NCBI RefSeq assembly: GCF_014243445.1
Contig: NZ_JACLQD010000003.1
Location: 62,001 to 126,000 of the forward strand
DNA length: 64,000 bases
Direction of reading: 5' to 3'
From: Paragemmobacter straminiformis
GTDB taxonomy: Bacteria; Pseudomonadota; Alphaproteobacteria; Rhodobacterales; Rhodobacteraceae
Program-made: the position numbers and the translations under genes
The notes under the pieces: model-generated
Told to the model about the DNA's origin: nothing
What the model saw: the letters and a program-made list of their open reading frames with translations, nothing else
Databases searched by the model: none
Part shown: positions 35,790 through 62,201 of the stretch, one piece after another
Numbering within the stretch: position 1 is the first letter of the stretch
Layout: every line of letters starts with the position of its first letter

Positions 35790-36625
35790 GCCGAAAGCAC
35801 CGCGGCGCGTGTCGCCTCGTCCACCTCGGGGCGGTGGCCGAACCAGCGTTCGAAGCCGGGGGCGGCCTGATGCAACAACATGCCAAGACCGTCGACGATG
35901 GTGGCGCCGCGGGCCTCGGCCTCGATCAGGAACTGGGTTTTGAGCGGGGTGTAGACGAGATCTGTCACCAGCGTTCCGGCGGCGAGCGTGCCGAGGGGAA
36001 GGACAAGATCGGGTTTGCCGGTCATGCCGAGGGCGGTGGTGTTGACCACGGTGGCCGCGCCGTCGATCATGTCTTCGGCCTGCACCCATTCATGCACGCG
36101 GACCTTGGCCCCGAAATCGCTGCGCAGCGCATCGGCGCGGGCGCGGGTGCGGTTGGCGAGGCGGATTTCGGGCACGCCCACCTCGATCAGGGCGGCGATC
36201 ACGGCGCGGGCGGCACCGCCGGCACCGAAAACGGCGGCGGGGCCGGATGCGGGTTGCCACTGCGGGGCATGCTGGCGCAGGTTGGCGATAAAGCCGGAAC
36301 CGTCGGTGTTGTCGGCCTGTATTTTCCCGTCCTTGCGGAAAATCAACGTGTTGGCGGCACCGATCAGGGCGGCGCGGTCGGTGATGACATCGGCGATTTG
36401 GAGGACCGCTTCCTTGTGCGGGATCGTCACGTTGCATCCGACAAAGCCCATGCGGGGCATCATGCGCAGGGCTTCGGCCAGATCGGACTGGGCGATATCG
36501 AGAGGAATGTAATGACCCTTGATGCCGTAGCGTTTCAGCCAATAGCCATGCAGCGCCGGAGAGCGGCTGTGGGCGATGGGCGAGCCTATGACGCCCGCAA
36601 GGGGAATGCGCGGATGGTTGGTCAT
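35786..36625 (-). CDS. aroE: Shikimate dehydrogenase AroE (279 aa)
   Basis: NADPH-dependent reduction of 3-dehydroshikimate. The substrate pocket has [20 protein letters not shown] (K71, catalytic) and ADNTDGSG (D108); the cofactor domain has GAGGAARAV and the ANRTRARA phosphate-binding segment. Length fits. It overlaps both maf (4 bases) and coaE (4 bases), so the four genes are translated in tight coupling. Confidence 0.96.
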
Positions 36626-37224
36626 GCGGCGATGAAACCCCGTTGGGACAGATAGTTCAAGAGCGGCAGAAGCGGCAGGCCGAGAACGGTGAAGTAGTCG
36701 CCCTGGATTGCGGTGAAGAGGCGGACGCCTTCCTCTTCGAGTTTGTAGCTGCCGACGGCGTGGCGGATGCTGTCCCAGTGGCGGGCGACATAGTCGGACA
36801 GATAGGCGTCGGAGGCGTTGCGCATGGTCAGGCGCACTTCGCCCACATGGCGCCAGACGGGTTCGCCACGGTCATACAGCACGGCGGCGGAGAGAAGTTT
36901 GTGGGTCTGGCCGCGAAAGGACTGAAGCTGCGACAGCGCCTCGGCCGGGGTTTCGGGCTTGGACCAAATGGCATGGCGGAATTCCAGCACCTGATCGCAG
37001 CCGAGGACGAGGGCCTCGGGGTGCTTTTCGGACAGTTTGCGGGCCTTCATCTCGGCCAGGGCATCGGCGATGTCGCGGGGGGTGGCAGCTTCGGATTGCA
37101 GGCTGGCACGGATTGCCGCTTCGTCGATGCGGGCCGGCAGGGCCTGCACGGTCAGGCCCGAGTTGCGCAGAAGCGTGGCGCGGATTTCGGATGCCGAGGC
37201 AAGAAGAAGGGGGCGGTCGGTCAT
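36622..37224 (-). CDS. Maf/YceF-type nucleoside triphosphate pyrophosphatase (200 aa)
   Basis: House-cleaning pyrophosphatase that hydrolyses modified or non-canonical (d)NTPs. The N-terminal [18 protein letters not shown] and the metal-site LGCDQVLE are family signatures, as is [11 protein letters not shown] in the C-terminal half. The variant details suggest the YceF-like (7-methyl-GTP) branch, but this is not certain. It is the first gene of the operon and its start faces the predicted replication origin. Confidence 0.92.
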
Positions 37225-37663
37225 GTGCGTCGTTTGCGAAGCCTTGGGGCGGGTCTGTGGATAGTCCGGTTTTGTTCTTGCGAGGGGAGCGGGGGCGAAA
37301 CCGGCGCTTTTGCCGAGGAGGGGCCGCAGGGGCCGGTTTGTCAAGGGACGGGTCCGGCTTGTCCACCTGTTGACGGGCGTTCCGGCCGGCTGGGGATGGT
37401 GCGTTGCGGCGCTGTCTGGGGAAGGATTGGATGTGGATGGAACTGGCTTGCCTACATGTCATTAACACATTGTTTAATAATGGTTTTATGTATCTAGATC
37501 AGGATCGCATCCGGCACGGGGGCGCTGTTTTCCACAGGGTTCAGGCTGTGGATTAAGGACGGGAGAAACAGGCGCATCCCGTTGTCCACAGGGCCTACAT
37601 CCTCTATCAAGTAAGAATCTTCTTTCTTTTAGAAGAAGAGGTAGCAGGGAGCGTTTGGAGCCG
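37225..37663. other. oriC: Predicted chromosomal replication origin (oriC)
   Basis: A 439-base gene-free interval between divergent maf and hemJ. Five DnaA-box-like 9-mers are visible: TGTGGATAG at 37256 (minus-strand CTATCCACA), TTGTCCACC at 37359, TTTTCCACA at 37528, TGTGGATTA at 37547 (minus-strand TAATCCACA) and TTGTCCACA at 37582. Three match TTATCCACA at 8 of 9 positions. An AT-rich stretch lies at 37460-37500. Flanking genes (dnaQ, coaE, aroE, maf on one side; rho, mnmE, mnmG, rsmG, parA, parB on the other) and the divergent transcription match alphaproteobacterial origins. Two parS sites lie 3-5 kb away. Confidence 0.82.
37458..37500. other. AT-rich candidate DNA unwinding element
   Basis: This is the longest AT-rich run in the origin region, containing CATTAACACATTGTTTAAT and GTTTTATGTATCTAG. 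It lies about 30 bases to the left of the cluster of three DnaA-like boxes at 37528-37590. Two TTAA blocks spaced 8 bases apart resemble but do not match a CtrA site (which has 7). Confidence 0.5.
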
Positions 37664-38116
37664 ATGGTGGGCGATTTTCTGGCCGAGTGGTATGTCTGGA
37701 CCAAGGCGCTTCATGTGATTTCGGTGATCGCCTGGATGGCGGGCCTGTTCTATCTGCCGCGGCTTTTCGTGTACCATGTCGAGGTCGTCGAGGCGGGAAG
37801 CCCGACGGATGCGATGTTCCAGACGATGGAGCGGCGCTTGCTGCGGGCGATCATGAATCCGGCGATGATGGGGGTTTGGATCTTCGGCCTGGCGCTTGTC
37901 TTCACGCCCGGCATCGTGAGCTGGGACGAGGTTTGGCCCTGGACCAAGGCGGCATCGGTTTTGGGGATGACGTGGTTTCACCATTGGCTTGGCCTGCGGC
38001 GCAAGGATTTCATCGCGGGGACCAACAGGGTATCGGGACGGCATTACCGGATGATGAACGAGGTTCCGACGCTTTTGATGGTGGTGATCGTCGTTTCGGT
38101 CATCGTGAAGTTCTGA
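37664..38116 (+). CDS. hemJ: Protoporphyrinogen IX oxidase HemJ (150 aa)
   Basis: Four-helix membrane enzyme that oxidises protoporphyrinogen IX, replacing HemG/HemY in most alphaproteobacteria. TKALHVISVIAWMAGLFYLP carries the conserved His (H17) and the family core, followed by MFQTMERRLLR and WFHHWLG. The start is ambiguous: TTG 37655, ATG 37664 or GTG 37667 all have GGAG-like sequences nearby; ATG is used. It is the first gene to the right of the origin and upstream of rho. hemE, often adjacent to it in relatives, is absent. Confidence 0.9.
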   Translation: MVGDFLAEWYVWTKALHVISVIAWMAGLFYLPRLFVYHVEVVEAGSPTDAMFQTMERRLLRAIMNPAMMGVWIFGLALVFTPGIVSWDEVWPWTKAASVLGMTWFHHWLGLRRKDFIAGTNRVSGRHYRMMNEVPTLLMVVIVVSVIVKF

Positions 38117-38136
38117 GGGCCGAAACCCGCGCCGGA

Positions 38137-38165
38137 TTGACTTTGCGGGGTCGGTTGCGTATGTG
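38137..38165 (+). promoter_or_regulatory. Predicted rho promoter
   Basis: TTGACT (38137-38142), a 17-base spacer and TATGTG (38160-38165) lie 85 bases before the rho start, in the interval after hemJ. The roughly 75-base leader that results could host autoregulation, which is known for rho in other bacteria. Confidence 0.45.
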
Positions 38166-38250
38166 CGGCTTTGCTGGGCCGTCCGGTCCGATGCTTTTCC
38201 CTTTCCCATTCTGCCTGCCAGCCCCATTCGGGCGGCTATAGGACTTGCGT

Positions 38251-39528
38251 ATGACCGAGACCGTCGAACGTCTGAATCTGTCTGATCTGAAAGCCAAAAC
38301 TCCGGCGGACCTGCTGGCGATGGCCGAGGAATGGGAGATCGAGAACGCCCCTTCGATGCGCAAGGGCGAGATGATGTTCCAGATCTTGAAGGAACATGCC
38401 GAGGACGGGTTCGAAATCGGCGGGGATGGCGTTCTGGAAGTGTTGCAGGACGGGTTCGGGTTTCTGCGCTCGCCCGAGGCGAACTATCTGCCGGGTCCGG
38501 ATGACATTTACGTCAGCCCCGAGATGATCCGCCAGTTTTCGCTGCGGACGGGGGACACGATCGAAGGGGTCATTCAGGCGCCGCGCGAGACCGAACGGTA
38601 TTTCAGCCTTGTGAAGGCGACGAAGATCAATTTCGACGATCCGGAACGGGCGCGGCACAAGGTGCATTTCGACAACCTGACGCCGCTTTACCCCGATGAG
38701 CGGTTGAAGATGGAAATCGAAGACCCGACGATCCGGGACCGGTCGGCGCGGATCATCGACCTTGTTTGCCCCATCGGGAAGGGTCAGCGCGCGCTGATCG
38801 TGGCACCGCCGCGGACCGGTAAGACGGTTCTGTTGCAGAACATCGCGCATTCGGTGGCGACCAATCACCCCGAATGCTACCTGATCGTGCTGCTGATCGA
38901 CGAACGCCCCGAGGAAGTGACCGACATGCAGCGCTCGGTTCGCGGCGAGGTTGTTTCGTCGACCTTTGACGAACCGGCGACGCGGCACGTTGCAGTTGCC
39001 GAGATGGTGATCGAAAAGGCGAAGCGTCTGGTCGAGCACAAGCGGGATGTCGTGATCCTGCTCGATTCGATCACGCGTCTGGGTCGGGCGTTCAACACTG
39101 TGGTGCCGTCGTCGGGCAAGGTTCTGACCGGTGGTGTCGATGCGAACGCCTTGCAGCGGCCGAAGCGGTTTTTCGGGGCGGCGCGGAATATCGAAGAGGG
39201 CGGGTCGCTGACCATCATCGCCACGGCGTTGATCGATACCGGCAGCCGGATGGACGAGGTGATCTTTGAAGAATTCAAGGGCACCGGCAACAGCGAGATC
39301 GTGCTGGACCGCAAGGTTGCGGACAAGCGTGTGTTCCCTGCGATTGACATCCTTAAATCCGGCACGCGGAAAGAGGACCTGCTGGTCGACAAGGTCGATC
39401 TGCAAAAGACCTATGTGCTGCGGCGTATTCTGAACCCGATGGGCACGACGGATGCGATTGAATTCCTGATTGGCAAGCTGAAGCAGACCAAGACCAACGG
39501 CGAATTCTTCGAATCTATGAATAGCTGA
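38251..39528 (+). CDS. rho: Transcription termination factor Rho (425 aa)
   Basis: Hexameric RNA helicase. The N-terminal domain begins [15 protein letters not shown], the cold-shock RNA-binding fold has [23 protein letters not shown] (broken here for length), Walker A is APPRTGKT (about 185-192), then [10 protein letters not shown], the Q-loop/R-loop region and the C-terminal [10 protein letters not shown]. Length is standard without large insertions. The ATG at 38251 follows AGGA. The gene lies just right of oriC, co-oriented with replication. Confidence 0.6.
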
Positions 39529-39550
39529 TCCTTTTCAAAGGGTTAATCAG

Positions 39551-40825
39551 GTGGATACGATCTACGCCCTCGCCAGCGCACGCGGCAAGGCCGGAGTTGC
39601 GGTATTGCGCATCTCGGGGCCTGAGGCGCATAGGGTGGTGGAGATCCTGTGTGGATCGGTGCCGCCGCCGCGTCGCGCGGCGTTGCGGCAGCTTGTCTGG
39701 GACGGGCGGGTTCTGGATGAGGCGCTGGTTCTGGTGTTCGATGCGGGGGCCAGTTTTACCGGCGAGGCCGTCGCAGAGTTGCAGGTGCATGGGTCGGTTG
39801 CGGTTGTTCAGGCCGTGATGCGGGCGTTGGGTGCGCAAGCGGGTTTGCGTTTGGCCGAGGCCGGAGAGTTTACGCGGCGGGCTTTGGAGAATGGCTGTCT
39901 GGACCTTGCGCAAGTTGAGGGTCTGGCGGACCTGATCGATTCCGAGACAGAGGCGCAGCGGCGGCAAGCCCTGCGCGTGTTGTCGGGTGCAATCGGGCAG
40001 CGGGCCGAGCTGTGGCGGGCCAAGCTGGTACGGGCCGCGGCCTTGATCGAGGCGACCATCGACTTTGCGGATGAGGATGTTCCGGTTGATGTGACGCCGG
40101 AAGTCCTTGGTTTGATTGCCGAAGTCGAGGCGGATTTGCGCCTCGAGCGGGCCGGATCGGCAGCGGCCGAGCGGATCAGGGACGGGTTCGAAGTGGCTAT
40201 CGTCGGCCCGCCCAATGCCGGAAAATCGACGTTGCTGAACAGCCTTGCGGGGCGGGAGGCGGCGATCACCTCGGAAATCGCGGGGACGACGCGGGACGTT
40301 ATCGAGGTGCGGATGGAGATCGCCGGTCTGGCCGTGACGCTGCTGGATACGGCCGGATTGCGCGAAACCGAAGACAAGGTCGAGCGGATCGGGATCGAAC
40401 GGGCGATAGCGCGTGCGCAGGCGGCGGATTTGCGCGTGTTCCTTATGGGGGATGGCGAGGTTGTCGGGCTGTCTCCGGCGGGGGATGATATTGTCGTTCA
40501 GGGCAAGTCGGATCTGGGTGGTGCGGGGGTTTCCGGAAAGACGGGGCAGGGGATAGCCGAGTTGATTGCGTTGATCGGCGCGCGATTGTCATCGGTGACG
40601 CAGGGTGCCGGCGTGATTACGCGCGAGCGGCACAGGTTGGCGGTAGAGCGGTCGATCGGGGCTATGGAATCGGCGCTGCATGAGATAGAAAATGGTCCGC
40701 AGCGGGCCGAGTTCGCGGCCGAGGCGTTGCGCCGTGCCGTGCGGGGGCTGGAATCCCTGGTCGGGCGCGTGGATGTCGAGAATTTGCTGGATGAAATCTT
40801 CTCCAGCTTCTGTATCGGGAAGTAG
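39551..40825 (+). CDS. mnmE: tRNA modification GTPase MnmE/TrmE (424 aa)
   Basis: With MnmG, installs the cmnm5 group on wobble U34 of tRNAs. The N-terminal tetrahydrofolate-binding domain starts [19 protein letters not shown]; the G domain has G1 GPPNAGKST (219-227), G2/G3 TTRD and [10 protein letters not shown]; the C-terminus is the conserved CIGK (C421). The protein is about 30 residues shorter than the E. coli form, with the loss in the G domain. The expected NKxD motif appears as GKSD (318-321), lacking the Asn. The start is GTG 39551 after AAAGGG. It precedes mnmG with no gap. Confidence 0.96.
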
Positions 40826-40826
40826 G

Positions 40827-42697
<1,871 letters not shown>

Positions 42698-42701
<4 letters not shown>

Positions 42702-43306
42702 CAGAGTTGCTTGCCGGTCTCGATGTTTCACGTGAAACAATCGAGAAACTGAAATCGCTCGAGTCGCTGCTCGCCAAATGGAATCCCGCGATCAATCTGG
42801 TTGCGCGCAGCACGGTCGATGCGGCGTGGAGCCGACATATTCTTGATTCTGCGCAGCTTTTCCAGATCGCCCCCTTCCGCGTCTGGGCTGATCTTGGCAG
42901 TGGCGGGGGCTTTCCCGGGCTTGTCATTGCCGTTCTGGCAGAGGGGCGCGGGTCTGACGCCAGGGTGGTTCTTGTCGAGGCCGACCAGCGCAAGGCAACC
43001 TTTCTGCGTGAGGCTGCGCGTGGTTTGGGGGTGAGGGTTCAGGTTGAAGCGCAGCGGATCGAGTCCGTCGACCCGCTGGCCGCCGATATCCTGTCAGCCC
43101 GCGCCCTTGCGCCACTTTCGGCCCTGTGCGGTTTTGCCGCCCGCCACCTTGCGCCGGCTGGGACGGCGATTTTCCCGAAAGGGCAGAACTGGGAGGCCGA
43201 AGTTGCCGAAGCGCGCAAAAGCTGGAAGTTTGACCTTGATGTCCGGCCGAGTCTGGTTGAAGCCGGTTCCGTTGTTCTTGTGATGAAGGCCATTGTTCAT
43301 GTCTGA
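42698..43306 (+). CDS. rsmG: 16S rRNA (guanine-N7) methyltransferase RsmG/GidB (202 aa)
   Basis: SAM-dependent methyltransferase acting on G527 of 16S r[26 protein letters not shown] and the SAM-binding [17 protein letters not shown] motif are characteristic, with [14 protein letters not shown] after it. The ATG overlaps the mnmG stop by 4 bases. Residues about 9-14 (DVSRET) are encoded by a second perfect parS. Its 3' end overlaps the parA start by 8 bases. Confidence 0.97.
42724..42739. other. parS: parS site 2, inside rsmG
   Basis: A second identical TGTTTCACGTGAAACA, 1.9 kb downstream of the first and within codons 9-14 of rsmG. It reads in a different frame from parS 1 in mnmG, so the two proteins carry different peptides over the same DNA word. 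It lies 560 bases upstream of parA. Confidence 0.95.
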
Positions 43307-44117
43307 TCCGACCCGCCCGCGCCAACCCCGCATCATTGCGATCGCCAACCAGAAGGGGGGGGTCGGCAAGACAACGACGGCCATCAACCTGGCGGCCGGA
43401 TTGGCGGAATTGGGCGCCAGGATCCTGCTGGTCGACCTCGACCCGCAAGGAAACGCCTCGACCGGATTGGGAATCGAGGCCGAGAACCGCAAGCTCACGA
43501 CCTATGATCTGCTGATCGACGATGCCGCGCTGTCTGATGTGATCCAGGAAACCGATGTGCCCGGCTTGCTGATCTGCCCCGCGAATGCCGACCTATCCTC
43601 GGCGGATATGGAGCTTTTCTCGAACGAAAAGCGCAGCTTCCTGTTGCATGACGCCCTGCGCCAACCGGCGATGGATGCCTTTGCGCTGGATTTCATCCTG
43701 ATCGATTGCCCGCCCTCGCTCAGCCTTTTGACGGTGAACGCAATGGTGGCTTGCCATTCGGTTCTGGTGCCGTTGCAGTCCGAATTCTTCGCCCTCGAAG
43801 GTCTGTCCCAGCTCATGCTGACGGTCCGCGAGGTTCGTCAGACCGCGAACCCGTCTTTGCGTATCGAAGGTGTTGTGTTGACCATGTACGACGGCCGCAA
43901 CAGGTTGAGCCAGCAGGTCGAAACTGACGCGCGGCAGAACCTCGGGGATCTGGTCTTCCAGACGATCATTCCGCGCAACGTGCGCGTCTCCGAGGCGCCG
44001 TCCTTCTCGCTTCCCGTCCTCAGCTACGATTCCGCCTCCAAGGGAAGCGAGGCCTATCGCGCCCTTGCCGCCGAGTTGCTGGCGCGTCATCCCATCGCCC
44101 ATACGGAGACCGTTTGA
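43299..44117 (+). CDS. parA: Chromosome partitioning ATPase ParA (272 aa)
   Basis: Deviant-Walker ATPase that forms the DNA-bound gradient used by ParB-parS complexes. KGGVGKTTTAINLA (K19 signature Lys, K24), LLVDLDPQGNAS, IDCPPSLSLLT and the C-terminal DNA-binding region are typical. The ATG at 43299 is preferred to TTG 43293; it overlaps the rsmG stop by 8 bases and follows GAAGG. parB begins directly after the stop, so the pair is co-translated. Confidence 0.97.
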   Translation: MSDPTRPRQPRIIAIANQKGGVGKTTTAINLAAGLAELGARILLVDLDPQGNASTGLGIEAENRKLTTYDLLIDDAALSDVIQETDVPGLLICPANADLSSADMELFSNEKRSFLLHDALRQPAMDAFALDFILIDCPPSLSLLTVNAMVACHSVLVPLQSEFFALEGLSQLMLTVREVRQTANPSLRIEGVVLTMYDGRNRLSQQVETDARQNLGDLVFQTIIPRNVRVSEAPSFSLPVLSYDSASKGSEAYRALAAELLARHPIAHTETV

Positions 44118-45026
44118 ATGGAAAAGAAAAACGAACGCCGTGGTCTGGGGCGCGGGTTGTCTGCGTTGATGGCGGATGTCAGCGTCGAGGTCGATCCGCA
44201 AACCCCCGACCGCGCGCGGCGTCCCGATCTACTGGTTCCGGTGGAGCGGCTGGTTCCCAACCCCAACCAGCCGCGGCGCGATTTCCAGCCAGAGGCCCTG
44301 CAGGAATTGGCCGATTCGATCCGGCTGAAAGGCGTCATTCAGCCCCTGATCGTCCGGCTGATCGCCGAGGACCGCTACGAGATCGTCGCGGGTGAACGGC
44401 GCTGGCGGGCTGCGCAACTGGCGCAGGTCCATGAACTGCCCGTGATTTTGCGCGACTTCAGCGATTCCGAGGTGATCGAGGTCGCGATCATCGAAAACAT
44501 CCAGCGCGCTGACCTGAACGCGGTGGAAGAGGCTTTGGCCTACAAGCAGTTGATGGAACGCTTTGGTCATACACAAGAGAAGGTAGCAGAGGCGCTTTCG
44601 AAAAGCCGCAGCCATATCGCCAACCTGCTGCGCCTGCTGACCTTGCCCGAGGACGTTCAGGCCTATGTACGTCAGGGAAAGCTGTCTGCGGGCCATGCGC
44701 GGGCGCTGATTACCTCGCCTCGCGCGTCGGAACTGGCGCGGCAGGTGATCGAGCGGAACCTTTCCGTCCGCGAGACCGAGGCGCTGGCCAAGCACCCCGA
44801 GCAAAAGGGGGCCGGCAAATCGTCGGGGCCGCGACCCAAGGGCGAGAAAGACGCGGATACGCGCGCGTTGGAGGGGGATCTTTCCGCCAGTCTGGGTATG
44901 CGCGTGGTGATCGACCACAGTGCGGGCGGCGAGGGGGGCAGCCTGACGGTGCATTACCGCACGCTGGACGATCTCGACATGCTTTGCGCGGCGCTGTCGG
45001 TCGCGCGGCGGGATCTGGCGATCTAG
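44118..45026 (+). CDS. parB: Chromosome partitioning protein ParB, CTPase (302 aa)
   Basis: Binds parS and spreads as a CTP-dependent DNA clamp. The N-terminus RRGLGRGLSALM is the ParA-contact peptide, PNPNQPRRDF and GERRWRAAQL (92-101) belong to the CTP/ParB domain, and SKSRSHIANLLRLLTLP is the parS-reading helix-turn-helix. A Lys/Gly-rich linker and C-terminal dimer domain end the protein. The start follows the parA stop with no gap. It overlaps hemW (other strand) by 4 bases. Confidence 0.97.
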   Translation: MEKKNERRGLGRGLSALMADVSVEVDPQTPDRARRPDLLVPVERLVPNPNQPRRDFQPEALQELADSIRLKGVIQPLIVRLIAEDRYEIVAGERRWRAAQLAQVHELPVILRDFSDSEVIEVAIIENIQRADLNAVEEALAYKQLMERFGHTQEKVAEALSKSRSHIANLLRLLTLPEDVQAYVRQGKLSAGHARALITSPRASELARQVIERNLSVRETEALAKHPEQKGAGKSSGPRPKGEKDADTRALEGDLSASLGMRVVIDHSAGGEGGSLTVHYRTLDDLDMLCAALSVARRDLAI

Positions 45027-46177
45027 GCGCGCAATTCGCGCAGCACGCCGTTCAGAACGGTTCGGCCCTCGGGCGTGGCGATCAGTTGGTCATTTTCGAC
45101 CTGAACAAGGCCCAGATCGGCCAATCCGGCGATGCGGTCACCTTCGAGCGGCGCGCCGTTCAGGCGTTCGAAGCGGCCGAGGTTCATGCCCTCGGCAAGC
45201 CGCAGCGACATCAGCAGATATTCGGTGGCCTGATCGGGCAGGTCCACGGTCTCGCGTGCGAGTTCTCCGGCCTGACCCGCTTCGACACGGTTTAACCACT
45301 CTTTGGGCGCGCGGGGCGCTTCGGTTGCCCAGCGGGTGCCGTTCAACGTCAACCGCCCATGCGCGCCGGGGCCTATGCCGATATAGTCGCCCATGCGCCA
45401 GTAAATCAGGTTGTGCCGGCTTTCCGATCCGCGCGCGGCGTGGTTCGAAACCTCATAGGCCGGCATGCCGTGAGCTGCGCAAACCTCTTGCGTCAGGGCA
45501 TACATATCGGCCTGAACATCATCGTCAGGCAGCCCCTTCAGCCCGCCGCGGGCAAAGCGGTCGCCGAATGCGGTGCCGTCTTCGATGGTGAGTTGATACA
45601 TCGACAGGTGGTCCACGGCCATCGACAGCGCTTCGGTCAGCTCTTTGCGCCAATCGGCAAGGGTCTGGTCTTGGCGTGCATAGATCAGGTCAAAGCTGAC
45701 ACGATCAAAGCATTTTCTAGCGATATCAAATGCTTGCCTTGCCTCGGCCAACGAATGCAGCCGCCCGAGGCGGCGCAGGTCCGCGTCGTTCAGCGCCTGA
45801 ACGCCCATCGAGACCCGCGTCACCCCGGCCTCGCGGTAGCCCTGAAAGCGGCCCGCCTCGACCGATCCGGGATTCGCCTCGAGCGTGATTTCGGGGTCAT
45901 TCACCATCGGCCATGTCGCGCGAACGGCGTCGAGGATGGCGTGGACCACATCGGGTTGCATCAGCGAAGGGGTGCCACCGCCGAAGAACACGGTTTGCAA
46001 CACGCGGCCACGGGTTTCAGCACCCACTCTTGCGATCTCGCGCAGATAGGCATCGCGCCAGCGGGTCTGGTCGATGCTGGCGGCGACATGGCTGTTGAAA
46101 TCGCAATAGGGGCATTTCGACTGGCAAAACGGCCAGTGCAGATAAAGCCCGAAGCCGCCTGCCTGCCAGTCTTCCAT
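45023..46177 (-). CDS. hemW: Heme chaperone HemW, radical-SAM family (384 aa)
   Basis: HemN-like radical-SAM protein that binds and transfers heme rather than acting as coproporphyrinogen dehydrogenase. The iron-sulfur motif is CQSKCPYC (C18, C22, C25); the conserved HNLIYWRMGDYIGIGPGAHG segment marks HemW. True HemN proteins have a further N-terminal extension with a Cys, absent here. It is convergent with parB and lies at the end of the rph-rdgB-ridA-hemW set, 3 bases from ridA. Confidence 0.94.
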   Translation of the reverse strand: MEDWQAGGFGLYLHWPFCQSKCPYCDFNSHVAASIDQTRWRDAYLREIARVGAETRGRVLQTVFFGGGTPSLMQPDVVHAILDAVRATWPMVNDPEITLEANPGSVEAGRFQGYREAGVTRVSMGVQALNDADLRRLGRLHSLAEARQAFDIARKCFDRVSFDLIYARQDQTLADWRKELTEALSMAVDHLSMYQLTIEDGTAFGDRFARGGLKGLPDDDVQADMYALTQEVCAAHGMPAYEVSNHAARGSESRHNLIYWRMGDYIGIGPGAHGRLTLNGTRWATEAPRAPKEWLNRVEAGQAGELARETVDLPDQATEYLLMSLRLAEGMNLGRFERLNGAPLEGDRIAGLADLGLVQVENDQLIATPEGRTVLNGVLRELRA

Positions 46178-46179
46178 CG

Positions 46180-46554
46180 TCAGCCCCTGAAGGCCGTGAC
46201 TTCGATTTCGATCTTCATTTCCGGTTTGATCAATCCGGCGATCACCATCGTTGCGGCAGGGCGGATGTCGCCCAGGGCCGCGCCCAAGGCGGGGATCAGC
46301 GCGTCTACCAGCGCCACATCGGTGACCGTGTACTGGACGCGGACGATATCCTCCATCGTAAAGCCCGCCTGCGCCAGAACCGAGGCGATGGTTGCAAAGC
46401 AGTTGCGCGCCTGGTCGGCGACATCGTCAGGAATGGTCATCGTGGCGTAATCATAGCCCGTGACGCCCGACACAAAGCACCACCCGCCTTTGACGATCGC
46501 GCGGCTGTAGCCCATCGTCGCCTCAAAGGGCGATCCGGTCGAGATGCGTTTCAT
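46180..46554 (-). CDS. RidA family protein (124 aa)
   Basis: YjgF/YER057c/UK114 fold. FVSGVTGYDYATMTIP, the DIVRVQYTVTDV segment and KIEIEVTAFRG are of the family, but the Arg needed for enamine/imine deamination in RidA proper (usually near position 105) is not in the canonical IPAxARxxV context: here the segment reads RPAATMVIAGLIKPEMKIEIE. It may belong to a Rid subfamily with another function. The start overlaps the rdgB stop by 4 bases. Confidence 0.9.
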   Translation of the reverse strand: MKRISTGSPFEATMGYSRAIVKGGWCFVSGVTGYDYATMTIPDDVADQARNCFATIASVLAQAGFTMEDIVRVQYTVTDVALVDALIPALGAALGDIRPAATMVIAGLIKPEMKIEIEVTAFRG

Positions 46555-47159
46555 GTGAAGCAGCCTTTCACCAGTTTGCGGAATGCGTCGGCGCGGTGAC
46601 TGATCTCGTTCTTCTTCCAGCGGTCCATCTCGCCGAAGGTGATGTCGAAACCGTCGGGTTGGAAGATCGGGTCATACCCGTGCCCCTGATCGCCGCGCAT
46701 CGGCCAGACAACCTGACCGGGCATTACGCCCTCGAACACTTCGTCATGCCCGTCGGGCCAAGCCAGAACGAGGGTGCAGCGGAATTGCGCCCTGCGGGGG
46801 TAGGGGGCGTCTGCCGCTTCCAGCGCTTGCCATGTGCGTGTCATGGCAAGGATGAAATCGCGCCCCTGCGGTGTTTCGGCCCAATCGGCGGTATAGACCC
46901 CCGGCGCGCCGTTCAGGCCATCGACCGAAATGCCGGAATCGTCGGCCAATGCGGGCAGGTTCGCGGCCTTGGCTGCGAAGTGGGCCTTGATGCGCGCGTT
47001 GCCGACAAAGGTGGATTCGGTCTCGGCCGGTTCGGGCAGGCCAAGGTCGCCCGCCGAGACGACATTCACCGAAAACGGCTCTAACAAGGCTGAAATCTCT
47101 TCCAGTTTGCCCTTGTTATGCGTGGCGACCACAAGCCGGTTTTCGGTGAATTTCCGCAT
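46551..47159 (-). CDS. rdgB: RdgB/Ham1 non-canonical purine NTP pyrophosphatase (202 aa)
   Basis: Hydrolyses dITP, dXTP and ITP to keep them out of DNA and RNA. VVATHNKGKLEEI at the N-terminus, ADDSGISVDGLNGAPGVYTA and the C-terminal FTFGEM/SHRADAFRKL-type segments (here ITFGEMDRWKKNEISHRADAF) are signatures. The ATG at 47159 overlaps the rph stop (TGATG); a GTG one codon upstream is possible. Confidence 0.93.
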   Translation of the reverse strand: MRKFTENRLVVATHNKGKLEEISALLEPFSVNVVSAGDLGLPEPAETESTFVGNARIKAHFAAKAANLPALADDSGISVDGLNGAPGVYTADWAETPQGRDFILAMTRTWQALEAADAPYPRRAQFRCTLVLAWPDGHDEVFEGVMPGQVVWPMRGDQGHGYDPIFQPDGFDITFGEMDRWKKNEISHRADAFRKLVKGCFT

Positions 47160-47875
47160 CACTTGCCCAGCGCCGCCTTTTGCGCCGCGACAAGCGCCGC
47201 GCAGCCTGCTTCGGCCAGATCGAGCAATTTGCCCATTTCGTCGCGCGAGAAGGTCGCGCCTTCGGCAGACATCTGCACTTCGATCAACCGGCCACGGCCC
47301 GTCATGATAAAGTTGCCGTCGGTGCCTGCGGTCGAATCCTCGGCGTAGTCGAGATCGCAGACCGCCTGACCCGCATAGATGCCGCAGGAAATGGCGGCCA
47401 CGTGGTCGATGATCGGGTCGCTGACGATGGCGCCGGATTTGAGCAGTTTGGCCACGGCCAGTTGCAGCGCGACCCAGCCGCCCGTGATCGAGGCGCAGCG
47501 GGTGCCGCCATCGGCCTGGATCACATCGCAGTCGATGACGATCTGGCGTTCGCCAAGGGCCGAGCGGTCAACGCCCGCGCGCAGGGCGCGGCCGATGAGG
47601 CGCTGGATTTCCTGCGTGCGGCCCGACTGTTTGCCAGCCGCCGCCTCGCGACGGGTGCGCGAATTGGTGGCGCGGGGCAGCATGCCGTATTCGGCGGTGA
47701 CCCAGCCGAGGCCCGTGTTCTTCAGAAAGGGCGGGGCCTTGTCCTCGATCGTGGCCGAGCAAAGCACATGGGTTTCGCCCATCTTGATCAGGCACGAACC
47801 CTCGGCGTGCTTCATCACATTCGGTTCGATGGAAACCGACCGCAATTCGTTCAATTTTCTGCCGGAAGGGCGCAT
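47159..47875 (-). CDS. rph: Ribonuclease PH (238 aa)
   Basis: Phosphorolytic 3'-5' exoribonuclease for tRNA 3'-end maturation. [12 protein letters not shown] at the start, [21 protein letters not shown] with the substrate Arg residues, and [16 protein letters not shown] for phosphate binding are present. Two ATGs in tandem (47878 and 47875); the second has better spacing to AAGGA. It is divergent from hrcA, an arrangement conserved in alphaproteobacteria. Confidence 0.96.
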
Positions 47876-47958
47876 CATTTGATCCTTGTATCACTTGGGG
47901 CCAGATAGGCCGTCAGACCCGTGCTATGCAAGTGTGATCAATGCGGCGATCCCGCCGA

Positions 47959-47986
47959 TTGACGGGCCGCAGCCCCGCGATAAACT
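47959..47986 (+). promoter_or_regulatory. Predicted hrcA promoter
   Basis: TTGACG (47959-47964), 16 bases and TAAACT (47981-47986), 25 bases before the hrcA ATG. No CIRCE repeat (TTAGCACTC dyad) was seen in the rph-hrcA interval, so autoregulation by that route is not indicated here. Confidence 0.45.
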
Positions 47987-48011
47987 TCATCGCTGCTATT
48001 GGAAACGAACG

Positions 48012-49076
48012 ATGACAGACGGTTCGAAAATCCTGTCCGACATGAACGACCGCTCGCGCGAGGTGTTCCGCCGCGTGGTCGAAGGTTATCTTGAATCGGG
48101 TGATCCGGTGGGGTCGCGGACCCTGACGCGCAGCATGACCGAAAAGCTGTCAGCGGCGACGATCCGCAACGTGATGCAGGATCTGGAGTTTCTGGGGCTT
48201 CTCGACAGCCCGCATGTTTCGGCCGGGCGGATACCGACCCAGCTTGGCCTGCGGATGTTCGTGGACAGCCTGCTTGAAGTGGGCAGCGTGGCCGAAGCCG
48301 ACCGCGAGCGGATCGATGCCACCACGGGATCGAACGATCAGGATGTGGCTTCGTTGCTTGACCATGTCGGCGCGGCGCTGTCGGGCATCACCCGTGGGGC
48401 GAGCCTTGTGCTGGCGCCCAAGGTCGAGGCGCCGATCCGGCATATCGAATTCGTCTCGCTGTCGCAGGAGCGGGCCCTTGTGGTGCTGGTGCTTGCCAAC
48501 GGTCAGGTCGAGAACCGCATCTTCACCCCGCCGCCGGGCCAGACGCCAAGCTCGATGCGCGAGGCCGCAAATTTCCTGAATGCGCTGGCCGAAGGGAAAA
48601 CCCTGACCGACCTGCGCCGCACCATCGGGGCCGAAATCGCCAAGCGTCGGCAAGAGATTGATTCGCTGGCCGGAGATCTGGTGCAATCGGGCCTTGCTGT
48701 GTGGGAAAACCCCGGGGAAACCTCGGAGCGGCTGATCGTGCGGGGGCGCGCCAACCTGATCGAAGGCGGCGATGCGCAGGATGTAGAGCGCATCCGCAGC
48801 CTGTTCGACGATCTGGAGAGGAAGCGCGACATCGCCGAATTCCTCGAATTGGCGGAATCGGGCGAGGGGGTGCGCATTTTTATCGGGTCCGAGAACAAAC
48901 TCTTCTCACTTTCGGGTTCAAGTCTGGTCGTTTCTCCCTATATGAACGCGGATCGGAAAATCATCGGCGCGGTGGGCGTGATCGGTCCGACCCGGCTGAA
49001 CTATGGCCGGATCGTTCCCATCGTGGATTACACCGCGCAACTCGTCGGGCGGTTGGTGTCTGAACGGGGCAAGTGA
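48012..49076 (+). CDS. hrcA: Heat-inducible transcriptional repressor HrcA (354 aa)
   Basis: Represses groESL and related heat-shock genes through CIRCE operators. The winged-helix region has YLESGDPVGSRTLTR and ATIRNVMQDLEFLGLL, followed by HVSAGRIPTQLGLR; the C-terminal domain has VVSPYMNADRKIIGAVGVIGPTR (split by the length rule to its key part GVIGPTRLNYGRIVP). ATG 48012 follows GGAAACG; the upstream in-frame extension runs into the rph promoter and is rejected. grpE follows 14 bases later, the usual pair. Confidence 0.6.
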   Translation: MTDGSKILSDMNDRSREVFRRVVEGYLESGDPVGSRTLTRSMTEKLSAATIRNVMQDLEFLGLLDSPHVSAGRIPTQLGLRMFVDSLLEVGSVAEADRERIDATTGSNDQDVASLLDHVGAALSGITRGASLVLAPKVEAPIRHIEFVSLSQERALVVLVLANGQVENRIFTPPPGQTPSSMREAANFLNALAEGKTLTDLRRTIGAEIAKRRQEIDSLAGDLVQSGLAVWENPGETSERLIVRGRANLIEGGDAQDVERIRSLFDDLERKRDIAEFLELAESGEGVRIFIGSENKLFSLSGSSLVVSPYMNADRKIIGAVGVIGPTRLNYGRIVPIVDYTAQLVGRLVSERGK

Positions 49077-61615: not shown

Positions 61616-62201
61616 CGAGGAACGGCTGCGCGAGGCACTGACCCGCCCCGCGCGGCCTTCGTCGGATTTCGACCTCAACCCTGCGATCGTTCTGCCCGAG
61701 GGGCGGGTCTTGCGGCCTGCTGCCGTTCTGGTTGCCGTCTGGCTTCGGCCCGAGGGTGCGCGGCTGATCCTGACGAAGCGGGCATCGCATTTGCAGCACC
61801 ATCCCGGCCAGATCGCCCTGCCCGGCGGTAAGGTGGATGCGGGCGACGATGGCCCCGTGGGGGCCGCGCTGCGCGAGGCGCGGGAAGAGATCGGCCTGCC
61901 AAGCGCGCAGGTCGAGGTTCTGGGTGAATTGCCCGCGCACGAGACGGTGACGGGTTTTTCGGTGACCCCGGTTCTGGCGCTGATGCGCGGCGATTTCGTG
62001 GCTGTTCCCGAAGCGGGCGAGGTGGACGAGGCGTTCGACGTGCCGCTGTCCCATGTGCTGGACCCTGCGCGCTACCGGATCGAGCGGCGGCGCTGGCGCG
62101 GGGAATGGCGGCGTTATTACGCGGTGCCGTGGGGGCCGTATTACATATGGGGCGCCACGGCGCGGATCTTGCGCGGTTTGGCCGACAGGGTGCAGGGATG
62201 A
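61605..62201 (+). CDS. CoA pyrophosphatase, NudL-like Nudix hydrolase (198 aa)
   Basis: LTKRASHLQHHPGQIALPGG is the CoA-pyrophosphatase motif, and GGKVDAGDDGPVGAALREAR with EEIG completes the Nudix box (about 74-97). It probably hydrolyses CoA or its derivatives to 3',5'-ADP and 4'-phosphopantetheine. The ATG at 61605 overlaps hslO by 11 bases; the stop overlaps the cca start (ATGA). Confidence 0.92.
   Translation: MPSDEERLREALTRPARPSSDFDLNPAIVLPEGRVLRPAAVLVAVWLRPEGARLILTKRASHLQHHPGQIALPGGKVDAGDDGPVGAALREAREEIGLPSAQVEVLGELPAHETVTGFSVTPVLALMRGDFVAVPEAGEVDEAFDVPLSHVLDPARYRIERRRWRGEWRRYYAVPWGPYYIWGATARILRGLADRVQG

Follow-up and report, generated by a model that had tools for sequence, protein, structure and literature searches.

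Two signs are standard in the computational prediction of a bacterial chromosomal origin of replication (oriC): a GC-skew minimum and a cluster of DnaA boxes. The oriC of Caulobacter, situated in the hemE/RP001 region, is characterized by weak DnaA boxes and by a neighbourhood that includes maf/coaE/dnaQ, rho and parAB. We analyzed a 64,000-nt stretch of the draft genome of Paragemmobacter straminiformis (hereafter ‘the window’) containing a candidate oriC in the intergenic region between genes maf and hemJ (positions 37225–37663 of the window). This locus shares with the Caulobacter oriC both the weak boxes and the listed neighbours; it differs in being flanked by maf and hemJ and in having no skew switch in this species. 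As argued below, the locus is probably an active, DnaA-dependent oriC from which strand asymmetry has become uncoupled.

Origins of Rhodobacteraceae were predicted earlier by Ori-Finder combined with hand curation (PMC6699656). Judged by the available part of that study, the predicted origins resemble the present locus in having DnaA boxes, a local GC dip (here 0.605 in 37001–40000 versus ∼0.64–0.68 across the 8 kb leftward) and parAB nearby. According to the same part, eight strains were excluded for lacking box enrichment or a distinct composition signal, i.e. as strains without clear oriC, thus awkward oriC cases are already in print; also, in Celeribacter marinus a skew switch was placed inside one replichore. 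No paper recognized as reporting that the skew minimum is displaced at oriC in members of this group came up in the literature searched, which included the available parts of PMC6315104 and PMC9836097.

DnaA boxes and parS sites at the maf/hemJ locus

The window covers positions 62001–126000 of contig C10 (636,488 b), one of the 16 contigs of the draft genome (4,117,396 b; designated G000). The host group was described as Rhodobacter/Tabrizicola-like Rhodobacteraceae, with G000 falling in a clade of four species. An initial annotation of the window, made from sequence alone, had proposed an oriC in 439 gene-free bases between divergent genes. The gap is indeed bounded by the end of maf (Maf-like protein; 36622–37224, minus strand) and the start of hemJ (UPF0093; 37664–38116, plus strand; 137.2 bits with the NCBIfam HemJ model, slightly below the cut-off of 138.05). 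The expected neighbours were also found, coaE and dnaQ beyond maf on the left, along with aroE, and rho, mnmE, mnmG, rsmG, parA (ParA-type ATPase; 43302–44117, plus strand) and parB (44118–45026, plus strand) on the right.

Matches to the DnaA-box pattern TTATCCACA were counted at no more than one or no more than two mismatches. The gap contains four 9-mers of the first kind, each with one mismatch: CTATCCACA (37256–37264, minus strand), TTTTCCACA (37528–37536, plus strand; TTATCCACA in a relative, G006), TAATCCACA (37547–37555, minus strand) and TTGTCCACA (37582–37590, plus strand). Two weak boxes with two mismatches, TTGTCCACC (37359–37367, plus strand) and CCATCCACA (37432–37440, minus strand), complete the set. 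The five boxes listed in the initial annotation were all recovered at their positions (37256, 37359, 37528, 37547 and 37582); the count of three boxes differing by one base had to be raised to four, and CCATCCACA was absent from that list.

Four or more boxes with at most one mismatch were not observed in any of 20,000 first-order Markov resamples of the gap (mean 0.05). Contig C10 has 43 such boxes, and the gap is its sole 500-b stretch exceeding two of them; among the matches listed (C1, C8, C9 to 493 kb, exact matches) no three boxes fell within 500 b. A DnaA-box cluster beyond chance, as in a bacterial chromosomal oriC, is thus present at the locus, with a small contrast at two mismatches. 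Exact TTATCCACA sites number only seven genome-wide; one of them, at C10:351 (L009:351–359), is only 351 b into the contig from its left end, and skew there drops to near zero.

Two exact parS-type palindromes TGTTTCACGTGAAACA are located at 40828–40843 and 42724–42739, 3.2 and 5.1 kb to the right of the gap, so that both parS and parAB are near the candidate origin. No other place in the genome comes within one mismatch of the parS pattern, but the reversed pattern likewise yields two places at this threshold; therefore, the weight lies in the exactness and position of the parS sites, not in their number. A scan with Rfam models of the window and of C10:1–20000 gave zero matches.

Conservation of the locus in related genomes

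Upstream regions of hemJ were collected in two overlapping sets of 30 and 80 loci (109 of 110 regions of full length), which gave 97 distinct regions. Of 59 matched places, found in 56 of 61 genomes, the first set takes the best 30, the locus under study included; the weakest of the 59 resemble paralogues. At least one box was present upstream of hemJ in 29 of these 30 loci, with frequent positions near −408, −228, −135, −116 or −82. The 97 distinct regions (of 109) have on average 3.2 boxes, with two or more boxes in 90 regions and none in three; the resampled mean, computed on 109 regions, is 0.1. The position and the gene neighbourhood are thus conserved in relatives, as for a bacterial chromosomal oriC.

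Two other genera, represented by G019 (one contig) and G028, show a weak switch at maf/hemJ, where raw GC skew in the sampled stretches turns positive after negative or zero values. The fourfold-site skew of G019 likewise changes sign there; that of G028 is dominated by codon bias, and G028 supports the switch through raw skew only. Given its location, boxes, parS sites and conservation, the maf/hemJ gap is the predicted oriC of the family. The earlier oriC assignment therefore stands as far as the box cluster, the neighbourhood, parS/parAB and the sampled skew switch in two other genera are concerned; the skew of the species itself and the conservation of the AT-rich patch, both described below, do not agree with it.

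One could argue that the boxes merely regulate maf or hemJ or titrate DnaA, and that the place was never an origin. The position of the boxes between divergent genes fits such a role. Still, this explanation is hardly credible in view of the sampled skew switch at the same spot in two other genera, the adjoining parS and parAB, and the recurrence of the box-and-tract layout in relatives.

Module adjacent to hemJ and DnaA-trios

The AT-rich patch assigned to 37460–37500 has 76% A+T, in agreement with the initial annotation, and the 40-mer with the highest A+T content within the gap begins at 37462 (31 of 40 A+T). The patch, however, is poorly conserved in sequence within the four-species clade. 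Two other segments are near-invariant in the four species despite divergence of the remaining intergenic sequence: the box at 37256 with its flank (to ∼37281, largely invariant) and a module at 37576–37639 (plus strand) made of box TTGTCCACA, a G/C-rich spacer, a CTACATC tract and a pyrimidine-then-purine tract. Invariance amid diverged sequence suggests continuing selection. The conserved core of the locus is this box-plus-tract module near hemJ, not the AT-rich patch, and the opening (unwinding) site is likely to be at 37576–37639 rather than in the patch. A similar arrangement near hemJ (a box, a spacer, an ATC-rich tract and then a pyrimidine-rich tract) was seen in many relatives; two or more consecutive ATC units occur within the final 120 b in 65 of the 97 upstream regions.

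The conserved boxes and module suggest that the origin still works. If it operates as DnaA origins described elsewhere do, DnaA would bind the scattered weak boxes as well as the box at 37582, and from the latter would extend over the adjoining tract toward hemJ; the duplex would open at this tract, where forks would be loaded. ParB bound to the two parS sites, 3–5 kb off, would then segregate the new origins.

In the basal unwinding system, as given in the available part of PMC8287927, at least three DnaA-trios occur within 16 bp of a DnaA box. The module is similar to this system in that its box is followed by a short spacer and a trio-type tract. At two mismatches, 47 of 83 loci have a run of at least three trios and the other 36 fail the rule; at three mismatches, 68 of 83 have such a run. 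The module of the window has just two consecutive trio-type triplets after the box, at one, two and three mismatches alike, which is short of the rule and speaks against the locus as an active origin. The difference from the described system extends to the whole clade: at two mismatches the run is one or two in 4/4 clade loci versus four to six in 11/11 nearest relatives on the tree. A run of five in L129 appears only with a different, weak box at three mismatches.

GC skew around the locus

Some results weigh against the box cluster itself. At two mismatches the gap exceeds the rest of C10 narrowly (6 per 500 b versus 5 at two places). The window as a whole has no box enrichment (7 matches; shuffle mean 3.94, with seven or more in 12 of 100 shuffles), and the genome has 222 boxes with at most one mismatch, below the 332 matches of the reversed pattern. 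GC skew, in turn, weighs against an active oriC at this place: 121 of the 128 5-kb bins of C10 are positive, including the 19 bins situated fully left of the site and the bin of the site itself; the seven negative bins fall inside 295–325 kb and 530–570 kb. There is no skew switch in the 99 kb of the contig left of the site, and the cumulative skew of C10 has its minimum at C10:988, 98 kb away. The sign switch of a bacterial chromosomal oriC is thus missing at the locus in this species.

Skew at fourfold sites, computed with our own crude, composition-rule gene caller, leads to the same result. The plus-strand GC skew to the left of the gap (C10:64.8–96.5 kb; block S1, 2800–34500 of the window) is +0.35 in plus-strand genes and +0.31 in minus-strand genes; to the right (C10:99.6–126 kb) it is +0.22 and +0.32, respectively. 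The check suggested in the initial annotation, a GC-skew minimum at the interval, therefore fails, with the minimum 98 kb off and the fourfold skew positive on both sides.

Since the sign of fourfold GC skew is the same for both gene strands, codon bias or transcription alone is inadequate as its cause, and such an origin of the skew is disfavoured. In the available part of PMC9836097 codon selection is described as contributing to high GC skew in Rhodobacterales, thus a non-replicative share of the skew may remain. Fourfold AT skew tracks gene strand and not position; hence GC skew alone informs on fork direction. An artefact in the assembly of G000 is unlikely, as the local pattern is equal in other assemblies. 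The anomaly, then, is that GC asymmetry in this clade keeps its sign across the locus; it looks as though forks had, recently on the evolutionary scale, passed over the locus from left to right.

Two local features of the positive arm were also noted. Within 43001–49000 of the window GC skew falls to values from −0.01 to 0.04 over ∼6 kb, from parA onward. At C10:290–345 kb (L020, L022 and L023) fourfold GC skew is negative, perhaps owing to a recent inversion.

Fork polarity and gene order in relatives

The order and orientation of comparable genes in C10:66–117 kb match those in G019 and G028; in the congener G005 the same gene block is inverted as a whole. Compared with G019 and G028, the left block keeps its orientation, a further point unfavourable to an ordinary active origin: colinearity with these two genera, where compared, rules out a local inversion of the left flank. 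For this clade, then, the skew evidence opposes oriC, and a local inversion does not account for it.

The GC strand asymmetry of S1 is reversed compared with the two other genera. Coding-strand fourfold skew of plus-strand genes in S1 is +0.34 in G000, −0.18 in G005, −0.01 in G019 and −0.15 in G028; for right-hand plus-strand genes it is +0.24 in G000 versus −0.10 in G005. Polarity is left-to-right in G000 and right-to-left in G005 across S1, dnaQ–maf and the right genes, and in neither genome does it switch at the boxes. Block S2 of G005, located further left, is without leftward polarity. In G006 block S1 is inverted and its genes retain values similar to those in G005.

We find it quite improbable that the locus is an ordinary oriC with skew displaced solely by chromosome inversions and not yet re-equilibrated. 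The genus is heavily rearranged: the 32-kb block adjoining the locus is inverted in G006, the skew minimum of G006 coincides with a junction absent from four other genomes, and in sampled stretches of G005 and G001 skew changes sign several times. On the other hand, dnaQ–coaE–aroE–maf still adjoins the locus, and fourfold asymmetry is reversed in the left 33 kb despite colinearity with two other genera; besides, an inversion containing oriC would leave the switch at oriC. For the block adjoining the locus, inversion is therefore disfavoured. The 32-kb inversion itself (L103–L104, G006:C1:3570103–3601606, corresponding to C10:64.8–96.5 kb of G000) has a breakpoint ∼2.7 kb left of the intergenic region, adjoining dnaQ.

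Polarity over a larger set of loci was characterized by D, the difference in coding-strand fourfold skew between genes on the right (hemJ, rho, mnmE and mnmG) and genes on the left (dnaQ, coaE, aroE and maf); an origin between the two groups predicts D near zero. Values were obtained for 83 of 86 loci, near-duplicates G005 and L134 among them (L132, L200 and L201 had too few fourfold sites and were dropped). The median D is 0.17; ten loci have D from 0.59 to 0.94 (0.72 in G000) and the other 73 from −0.21 to 0.45, so the expectation of zero is met only loosely outside the ten. On a tree built by a quick search with concatenated proteins, the high-D loci require four changes (gains or losses); they belong to the four-species clade studied here, to a Tabrizicola thermarum/Rhodobacter calidifons clade of four and to two single lineages. 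Outside the clade studied here, loci L150, L155, L162, L164, L144 and L187 share its one-sided polarity at the canonical origin.

It is possible, albeit unlikely, that in this clade, perhaps in other lineages too, the ancestral oriC at maf/hemJ has ceased to be the main place of initiation, and that replication here starts mainly to the left. The maf/hemJ region would then be replicated passively; its boxes, module and parS would be kept for DnaA binding, regulation or segregation, or the region would act as a secondary origin, and fork polarity would have switched repeatedly within the group. The fourfold GC skew, being of one sign left and right of the locus and in both gene strands, does point to left-to-right forks, the unchanged gene order indicates a reversal in place, and the high D values with four changes on the tree, the opposite polarity of G005 and the short trio runs of the clade are in line with such a move. 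At the same time, the boxes and the module remain conserved, block S2 of G005 does not follow the leftward polarity, and the direction of forks is indicated by GC skew only, AT skew following gene strand. In addition, trio run and D show no association over the 83 loci at two mismatches (Spearman −0.02, p 0.86). Trio loss was rejected as a general explanation for the shift in polarity, with a run of at least three in 4 of 10 high-D loci versus 43 of 73 others (two mismatches); the short run nevertheless coincides locally with this clade.

Search for another origin or replicon

The turning point of skew in G000, if any, would be located left of C10:1. In G006 the skew minimum of the 174 kb examined, where skew turns positive, is at 3.4816 Mb, to the left of the box cluster and 123 kb from it; this displacement, too, counts against an active origin at maf/hemJ. 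No box cluster was found at this minimum in the 174 kb (31 kb of them left of the minimum; beyond the 174 kb the contig was covered by sampled stretches only). The minimum is located at a junction, one side of which (mutL) matches C10:250–252 kb of G000 and the other (dnaKJ) matches C8:1185–1189 kb, both gene labels being assigned by eye. The two sides adjoin at G006:3478000–3483100 (L110:8000–13100) and are far apart in G000, G001, G003 and G005; thus, the G006 minimum may partly be a rearrangement scar. Both the coincidence with the junction and the absence of a second box cluster from C10 and from the 174 kb of G006 argue against relocation of initiation.

Four genomes were searched for the RepC and RPA replicase families. 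RepC was detected only on C3 of G006 and C2 of G001, and RPA only on C4 of G006; neither was found in G000 or G005, which is another argument against relocation. An integrated plasmid replicon was rejected on these grounds, the search covering these two families only. A search for rRNA operons returned none in six genomes, but it missed 5 of 14 controls, including Caulobacter, and is uninformative on operon direction.

Implications for origin evolution

Overall, an active oriC at maf/hemJ with decoupled strand asymmetry is more likely than relocation. The two standard signs of an origin disagree here, apparently in several lineages, while local gene order stays constant. Either origins relocate more readily than has been thought, or the asymmetry can be set by something other than the direction of forks from oriC. 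Relocation, if true, would be a case of natural turnover of bacterial origins with the old and the new states visible in sister species. As sister species differ in state, the question can be tested with ordinary sequencing, applied to growing cultures.
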